Shown: positions 20,331-22,047 of the stretch, in pieces
How positions within the stretch are numbered: position 1 is the stretch's first letter
Layout: each line of letters starts with the position of its first letter
Assembly (NCBI GenBank): GCA_945861515.1
Contig: CAMAVA010000012.1
Span: 1 to 37,459, forward strand
Origin: Brevundimonas vancanneytii
GTDB taxonomy: Bacteria > Pseudomonadota > Alphaproteobacteria > Caulobacterales > Caulobacteraceae
DNA: 37,459 bases
Direction of reading: 5' to 3'
Translations under genes and position numbers: made by a program
Notes under the pieces: generated by a model
Databases searched by the model: none
Seen by the model: the letters and a program-made list of their open reading frames with translations, nothing else
What the model was told of the DNA's origin: nothing

Positions 20331-20500
20331 ACAACCCCGTCATCCCGGCCGAAGCGCGTCAGCGCGAAGAGCCGGGACCCAGAGCAACTTCCGATAAGTG
20401 TGAAGCGGTTATCGGAAAAGGCTCTAGCGGCTGCAAGGACGCAGTCGGGCAGCTCCGCTGTCTGAATCCTGTCTCTTCTGGCTCCCGGATCGTCCCGGTT
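20331..20500. repeat. Composite palindromic intergenic repeat region
   Basis: TCCCGGC...GCGC-GTCA-GCGC...GCCGGGA (20343-20377) and a perfect 9-bp inverted repeat TTCCGATAA (20389-20397) / TTATCGGAA (20409-20417); a further CTCCCGGATCGTCCCGG downstream. Confidence 0.7.
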
Positions 20501-20534: not shown

Positions 20535-21269
20535 CTACACCCGCAGCATCAGCCCGCCATCAACCCCCAGGGCCTGGCCGGTGACAAAGCCGCCATCTTC
20601 GCTGGCCAGGAACAGAGCCGCCCGGGCGATATCGATGGGCTGGCCCAGGCGTTTGAGGGCCGCCTTCTTGGCCCAGAGCGCAGCCACATCCTCGCGGACA
20701 AAGCTGCCGGCGGTCATGCCCGTCGCGATGGCGCCGGGCAGGATGGCGTTGGAGGTCACCGCATGGCGGCCCAGCTCCAGGGCGAAGGTGCGCATCATGC
20801 CCACGACTCCGGCCTTGGAGGCCGAATAGGCCACCAGGCCGTTATCCGTATGGCGGGCCATGATCGAGGCGGTGAAGATCAGCCGGCCGCGGCCGCTGGC
20901 CACCACATGGGGCGTGGCGGCGCGGGACAGGCGAAAGGCGGCCCGCAGATTGACCGAGACCAGCCGGTCGAAGGCCTCGTCGGAGGTGTCGCCCACCGGC
21001 GCCGAATGGGAGACCCCGGCATTGTTGTAGAGGATGTCCAGGCCGCCAAAGGCCTCGGTCGCGGCGCCGATGATGGTCGCGGGGGCCTCGTCAGTGCTGA
21101 TGTCCTGGCCCATCGCCTGGATGGCGGCATGGTCGAACTCGAGGGCGGTTCCGGGACGATCCACCGCCAGGACCTGCGCCCCCTCGGCGGCGAACAGTTC
21201 GGCGGTCGCCCGGCCGATGCCGCTGGCGGCGCCTGTGACGATGGCCCGGCGGCCGGTCAGTCTTCCCAT
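20535..21269 (-). CDS. SDR-family NAD(P)-dependent oxidoreductase
   Basis: Start MGRLTGRRAIVTGAASGIGRATAELFA; LDILYNNAGVS; LVAYSASKAGVVGMMR; C-terminal FVTGQALGVDGGLMLRV; RBS GGAGG upstream. Confidence 0.95.
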   Translation of the reverse strand: MGRLTGRRAIVTGAASGIGRATAELFAAEGAQVLAVDRPGTALEFDHAAIQAMGQDISTDEAPATIIGAATEAFGGLDILYNNAGVSHSAPVGDTSDEAFDRLVSVNLRAAFRLSRAATPHVVASGRGRLIFTASIMARHTDNGLVAYSASKAGVVGMMRTFALELGRHAVTSNAILPGAIATGMTAGSFVREDVAALWAKKAALKRLGQPIDIARAALFLASEDGGFVTGQALGVDGGLMLRV

Positions 21270-21369: not shown

Positions 21370-21414
21370 AAAAAAAAGGCCCGCGTCGCCAAGGGGGAGG
21401 GAGCGACGCGGGCC
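21370..21414 (-). terminator. Strong intrinsic terminator (minus strand)
   Basis: Perfect 12-bp inverted repeat GGCCCGCGTCGC (21378-21389) / GCGACGCGGGCC (21403-21414) with a U8 tract on the minus strand (21377-21370). Confidence 0.9.
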
Positions 21415-21433
21415 GGTCTTGGAAGTGTCTGTC

Positions 21434-21518
21434 GTCGGCCGATCCAGAGCCCCGGGGTTTCGGGAGGCTGGGGGGGCTGTTCAGGGTCCGGAACCGCGGG
21501 GTCTCTTGATCAGCCGAC
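21434..21518 (-). ncRNA. Candidate structured RNA: long rod-like hairpin immediately upstream of the 21370-21414 terminator
   Basis: Minus strand pairs 21518-21508 with 21444-21434 (11 bp, one U.G), 21506-21503 with 21449-21446, 21501-21497 with 21454-21450, and GGTTC (21495-21491) with GAAACC (21461-21456, one bulge). Confidence 0.6.
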
Positions 21519-21643
21519 CATGAGGTTATCGACCCCGATCCCGGCGGCGGAAGGTCCGAAATAAGGTCTTTGCACGGCGATCTGTGGCGGCTTGCAGACC
21601 GTCTCGCCAAACCGTCGGAATTGGTTCAGGCTGCCGTCAGATC

Positions 21644-21979
21644 ATGACCTTCGACCCGACATACCCCACCCCGCCCGCCGCCCAGGTCTTTTTCGAACGG
21701 CGGGAGCTGGACCAGCTGATGCGGCTCTACGGGCGGATGGTGGCGGCCGGTGAATGGCGGGACTATGCCATAGCCGGCCTGTCCGACCGGGCTGTCTTCT
21801 GCGTTTTCCGCCGGGCCCATGAACAGCCCCTCTACCGGATCGAGAAGCAGCCCGAACTGGCCCGGCGTCAGGGGGCCTGGTCCGTGACGGCCCAGGGCGG
21901 CATGATCCTGCGGCGGGGCCAGGACCTGGCGCAGGTCCTGAAGGTCTTCGACAAGGGCCGGTTCAAGGTCGTGGAATAG
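21644..21979 (+). CDS. DUF2794-family conserved hypothetical protein
   Basis: MTFDPTYPTPPAAQVFFERRELDQLMRLYGRMVAAGEWRDYAIAGLSDRAVFCVFRRAHEQPLYRIEKQPELARRQGAWSV. Confidence 0.88.
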   Translation: MTFDPTYPTPPAAQVFFERRELDQLMRLYGRMVAAGEWRDYAIAGLSDRAVFCVFRRAHEQPLYRIEKQPELARRQGAWSVTAQGGMILRRGQDLAQVLKVFDKGRFKVVE

Positions 21980-21982
21980 CAA

Positions 21983-22010
21983 AAGGCCCCGGTGTCACCA
22001 CCAGGGCCTT
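21983..22010. terminator. Bidirectional terminator between convergent DUF2794 and BI-1 genes
   Basis: AAGGCCC...GGGCCTT inverted repeat, with A-run on the left and CTGTTTTC on the right. Confidence 0.7.
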
Positions 22011-22047
22011 CGCTGTTTTCAGGCCATCTGCCTGGCCGGCCGCAGAC

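Follow-up and report, generated by a model that had tools for sequence, protein, structure and literature searches.

Organization of the locus

The window is the whole 37,459-nt stretch analysed here, from contig CAMAVA010000012.1 of Brevundimonas vancanneytii (assembly GCA_945861515.1); L, G, C and f numbers are our handles for loci, genomes, contigs and families. Between an SDR oxidoreductase gene and a divergently oriented DUF2794 gene, the following features were recognized:

20535–21269, minus strand: SDR oxidoreductase gene (Pfam), an occasional neighbour and not a required part
21370–21518, minus strand: sRNA gene of the CC3664 family (RF01530), from an Rfam match and covariation
21370–21414, minus strand: intrinsic terminator, hairpin 21414–21378 plus U8 at 21377–21370, from its fold and from covariation of helices 4 and 5
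21434–21518, minus strand: long rod hairpin, from its fold (z −5.9) and double changes in helix 1
21466–21479, minus strand: C-rich loop core at the apex of the rod, CAGCCCCCCCAGCC, a proposed interaction site, from conservation of the loop columns
21525–21530, minus strand: −10-like box GATAAC, six bases 5′ of the RNA start, read by eye
21540–21573, minus strand: conserved upstream element GCAAAGACCTTATTTCGGACCTTCCGCCGCCGGG at −55 to −22, candidate promoter or activator site, from motif comparison
21644–21979, plus strand: DUF2794 gene (PF10984; Pfam E 3e-39), divergent neighbour

Two further features were seen by eye in the surroundings. Between the convergent genes for DUF2794 and Bax1-I (21980–22020), an inverted repeat rich in G+C and bordered by runs of A and T is probably a bidirectional terminator, and CGTCATCCCGGCCGAAGCGCGTCAGCGCGAAGAGCCGGGACCC, between the DUF1223 and SDR genes (20335–20400), resembles a dispersed palindromic repeat.

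Identification of a CC3664-type RNA

An Rfam scan of the whole window, one of the checks proposed in an earlier sequence-only reading of this DNA, gave one match over threshold: RF01530 (CC3664) at 21518–21378 on the minus strand. The match covered the complete model (positions 1–136; E 1.8e-7), and its score of 60.3 bits was narrowly above the gathering score of 60. Because of this narrow margin, the identity was tested further by other means. The rod and the terminator were both backed by covariation (next section), and the RNA lies divergent to DUF2794, as do the best-scoring Caulobacter copies; one of these, L003, scored 168.3 bits on RF01530 and shares its arrangement with the window. Besides the full-length match, the two hairpins and the place beside DUF2794, the window RNA has the loop CCUGAACAGCCCCCCCAGCC in common with CC3664. 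It differs from the family in its score near the cut-off, in a longer rod insert, in CCUCC following the core and in the SDR gene downstream.

Among 250 Caulobacteraceae genomes, a CC3664-type RNA was matched in 217 at E ≤ 0.01 and scored over the cut-off in 104, and a search of 14 control genomes at E ≤ 0.1 gave a match in Caulobacter vibrioides only. The window RNA adds a new member to an sRNA family that is known but uncharacterised, CC3664 being an unexplained Caulobacter RNA. A search of a limited body of literature for CC3664 by name or locus tag found no paper; CCNA_R0092 is a possible NA1000 name for this type of RNA.

The long rod with an internal opening had also raised the idea of a 6S-like RNA that binds RNA polymerase, for which the sequence-only reading suggested including 6S models in the scan. 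We give this idea practically no chance, since a 6S match above cut-off is found at a separate locus of this genome (C156:5280–5441 in G000), and the window region matched RF01530 only and not the 6S model (RF00013).

Structure, covariation and strand

On the minus strand, 21518–21434 was shown to refold into the rod of consecutive helices that had been described from the sequence: a closing helix of 11 bp, including the single U.G pair reported for this strand, followed by helices of 4, 5 and about 5 bp with single-nucleotide interruptions (MFE −49.1, z −5.9; none of 200 shuffles was as good). The intrinsic terminator with U8 at 21414–21370 was likewise recovered, as a 13-bp hairpin (21414–21378) with an 11-nt loop (z −5.5). 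A consensus terminator scanner gave no match at this terminator because the loop exceeds the 3–8 nt that the scanner allows. In a comparison with shuffled sequence, which the earlier reading had recommended, the entire 150-nt unit reached z −6.7 against dinucleotide shuffles. The closing helix and the terminator had pair probabilities of 0.97 or more, which held when sequence was added on the upstream or downstream side, and no competing fold was seen in the window RNA, longer contexts included.

The covariation analysis, also recommended by that reading, was based on a MAFFT alignment of 32 Caulobacterales copies (alignment A1), for which RNAalifold gave a consensus of two hairpins. Standard pairs made up 94.4% of the cells of the consensus structure; when the partners were slid by 1–3 columns, pairing was only 33–47%. 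Double changes were found in 24 of the 36 pairs, compared with a shuffled mean of 12.2 (s.d. 2.0) and a count that high in 0 of 500 shuffles, a comparison in which the structure was drawn from the same alignment and the shuffles ignore relatedness. Helix 1 contributed double changes at 10 of its 14 pairs, and helices 4 and 5, which form the terminator, covary among the relatives. The paired columns contained 175 G-U cells versus 12 A-C cells, and the RNA was therefore assigned to the minus strand.

The Rfam match, the covariation and the excess of G-U cells bear out the structured minus-strand RNA of the sequence-only reading, whose coordinates were correct. Among the functions it had offered, that of a stand-alone sRNA is supported by the CC3664 match, the covariation and the RNA's own upstream element, and we consider it almost certain that the minus strand from 21518 to 21370 encodes a stand-alone sRNA of the CC3664 family. 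The predicted transcript has a length of about 149 nt, with a 5′ end placed near 21518 from the Rfam boundary and the −10-like box.

Upstream region and short ORF

A motif of 34 columns, seeded by hand and then refined with some 49 upstream regions, gave the consensus GAAATGGCCTTnnTTCGGCCnTTnnnCCGCC. Its scores are biased by training on the same sequences; its position was left free, so the placement is the informative result, and almost every one of the approximately 49 homologous loci had its best match between −52 and −57. The motif was weak or displaced in L031, L088, L104 and L123, and was shifted in L089 and L142 as a result of a differently set RNA start. Near −12, in the place of the −10-like box, the homologues contain GATAA or CATNTT (CATCTT, CATATT). 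Among transcription start sites (TSSs) that lack a recognised promoter motif, the one of the Bradyrhizobium japonicum RNA BjrC174, which is considered below, had the highest promoter activity of those tested (PMC4842269), and this fits an unusual promoter.

The short ORF with its stop at 21510 was present as written in the sequence-only reading. The role proposed for it, as a small-protein gene or in ribosome sensing, did not survive comparison with relatives, many of which contain in-frame stops (L003, L006, L013, L015, L016, L018, L021, and L026); the stop codon itself was missing in L013 and L017. The apparent PYFGP similarity of the ORF stems from conservation of the upstream DNA element.

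Neighbouring genes

DUF2794 adjoins the RNA in divergent orientation in most homologous loci. It is a small protein encoded next to the RNA across many families, for which sequence comparison gave neither a PDB relative nor an NCBIfam match; a single-sequence AlphaFold model (pLDDT 41.5) was set aside.

In most Caulobacteraceae loci with the RNA, DUF2794 was found upstream and no SDR gene downstream. The SDR gene recurs downstream on the same strand in three Caulobacteraceae loci (L017, L024, and L026), in f14 (L089 and L093) and in f121 (L072 and L073). Recurring in several families but missing from most loci, it is a real yet dispensable neighbour. In the four loci of f14 and f121, the RNA is directly followed by the SDR gene on the same strand, no terminator being obvious between the two, and readthrough from the RNA into the SDR gene is possible there.

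The sequence-only reading had also offered a regulated leader of the SDR gene. As an attenuator of this kind, the RNA would have its terminator controlled by the position of a ribosome on the short ORF or by a ligand. The recurrence of the neighbourhood, in the window as well as in these Caulobacteraceae, f14 and f121 loci, is in agreement with such a leader, as is the absence of a strong terminator past the rod noticed by eye in f14 and f121. However, the SDR gene is missing from most Caulobacteraceae loci that keep the RNA, which therefore shows no conserved association with that downstream gene, and the terminator of the window RNA forms with a probability of 0.97 with no fold competing. 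In addition, the short ORF is unconserved, and the RNA also exists as tandem and second-locus copies. We regard an SDR leader as very improbable, and the proposal was abandoned for the missing SDR gene and the lack of a competing fold.

Conservation of the loop and additional copies

The apical loop was shown to be the most conserved part of the RNA, with 96.6% identity in the loop columns of the alignment of relatives, compared with 82.4% in the rod helices and 24% in the linker. The loop core was also found in homologues from many alphaproteobacterial families. Exact copies of this core in the window genome were restricted to the window locus and a paralogue, and the core is kept in both the tandem copy and the second-locus paralogue described below, with different stems. 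The exact 16-mer pattern also matched without a rod at L064, L070, L074, and L075. Weak matches of the class-wide model at L126, L129–L132, L134, and L135 were without the core and were discounted as chance matches.

The paralogue in the window genome is a second rod with the same loop core (G000:C52:15041–15118, plus strand, locus L140; 64.9 bits with model R1), which has no U-tract terminator and has equivalents in G017 and G061. In many Caulobacter genomes, a second copy follows downstream of the first in tandem, at a distance of a few hundred bases. The tandem copy of G116 (L142; G116:C5:188705–188780, plus strand) was found to have its own upstream element and its own terminator, the same loop core and different stems. 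The f128 locus L124 (G531:C20:8451–8529, minus strand) combines a rod that has the loop core with a matching element upstream, and its contig is not the one that carries DUF2794; the RNA may have been relocated in this family.

Relationship to BjrC174 and distribution in the class

The loop core CAGCCCCCCCAGCCCC was also found beside DUF2794 outside Caulobacterales. At one such locus, L082 (f174), the Rfam scan identified RF02355 (BjrC174) with 175.5 bits. BjrC174 resembles the window RNA in its place beside DUF2794, in a rod with apical CUCAGCCCCC(C)AGCCCCCC and in a related upstream element; in L082, the RF02355 model starts about 80 nt upstream of the rod and includes the conserved upstream element. 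RF02355 matched 37 of 41 genomes of the f174 group, which is tied to Bradyrhizobiaceae through the Rfam name of BjrC174 only. DUF2794 was located just upstream on the opposite strand in all 20 BjrC174 loci examined, 19 of them additional (L145 being the L082 copy), and the loop CUCAGCCCCC(C)AGCCCCC was present in 15 of the 15 readable loci, with L147, L154, L155, L160, and L162 left out for cut flanks.

A model built from Caulobacteraceae rods only (R2) was put to a held-out test on loci of other families totalling 102 kb. Ranked highest were the rods upstream of DUF2794, among them the BjrC174 copy (31.5 bits, E 8e-5) and those of f2, f121, f9, f8, f95, f14, f62, and f126, the last few at E 0.04–0.4. 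Nine such loci beside DUF2794 were compared with Rfam at the gathering threshold, and none matched any family. A mixed model partly trained on non-Caulobacterales sequences (R1) found untrained copies near DUF2794 in G547, G498, G700, G609, G729, G645, and G778; its detection was patchy, most class genomes with DUF2794 giving no match (loss or divergence).

The window showed no match to RF02355 (gathering score 45 bits), and the putative homology of the window RNA to BjrC174 rests on place, loop and the held-out model. From these comparisons, CC3664, BjrC174 and the unannotated relatives look like one family that databases list as two unrelated ones, with no clan given for RF01530 or RF02355 in the Rfam scan output. 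To our knowledge, based on a limited coverage of the literature, no paper has joined CC3664 and BjrC174. What is new is the breadth of the family, which appears to be class-wide and to include BjrC174.

Discussion

The explanation that we favour as a whole, and consider reasonably probable, is a stand-alone sRNA gene of the CC3664 family whose C-rich loop would act by pairing in trans. The RNA would be transcribed from its own upstream element, starting near 21518 and ending at its own intrinsic terminator, and the rod would display the nearly invariant loop. This loop would pair with G-rich stretches, probably in mRNA leaders, and pairing may alter translation or stability of the target, as reported for GsrN. 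Taken by itself, pairing of the loop with G-rich RNA seems to us to have slightly better than even prospects.

Two known systems provide precedents. GsrN, the general stress sRNA of Caulobacter, exposes a C-rich loop, the best conserved portion of that RNA in Caulobacteraceae, which pairs with the G-rich katG leader (PMC5869019). It serves here as a model for the mechanism only. Its locus is a different one (ccna_R0081, near the sigT region), with a sigma-T promoter; by eye, GGAAC was absent from the −35 place of the window RNA. The aR8 sRNAs SisA-D (AbcR-like), likewise class-wide in Alphaproteobacteria, occur as sibling copies and share a C-rich core that is invariant (PMC12559287). They differ in their core, UUUCCUCCCU, and in a link to an FGase gene, both missing at the window RNA; the core was absent from 21370–21519 by eye.

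A search of the window genome for near-exact complements of the loop gave no convincing target; the near-complements (one mismatch in 14) sit inside long open frames, with no obvious leader site. Moreover, the invariant stretch is longer than a pairing seed requires, which speaks against pairing and leaves room for a protein partner. The main rival to mRNA pairing is a protein-binding RNA, the C-rich loop of which would bind or sequester a conserved protein that recognizes C-rich sequence. A loop core that hardly varies across the class, on stems that do change, would suit such a partner, as would the lack of an RNA target and the recurrence of DUF2794 as a neighbour. Conserved C-rich stretches are, however, also found in the base-pairing RNAs GsrN and SisA-D, and we hold a protein partner to be possible but rather unlikely.

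Pairing of the loop in trans remains our preferred reading for the window RNA, and the family to which it belongs appears to be an ancient alphaproteobacterial RNA with one nearly unchanging cytosine-rich loop. A more speculative proposal, which we put forward with considerable doubt, is that of one ancient alphaproteobacterial sRNA that would predate the split of the lineages and whose invariant loop would bind a single universal partner, a conserved RNA or a protein, possibly DUF2794, instead of a lineage-specific set of mRNAs.

BjrC174 has been described as an abundant sRNA of B. japonicum with validated promoter activity (PMC4842269), which speaks for the stand-alone sRNA reading. With CC3664 and BjrC174 joined, work in Caulobacter and in Bradyrhizobium could inform each other. 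The joined family offers a sharp test, with one loop, one neighbour and one upstream element. The near-constancy of the loop across the class, the recurrence of its neighbour and the fixed element upstream together suggest that the RNA is a core regulator.
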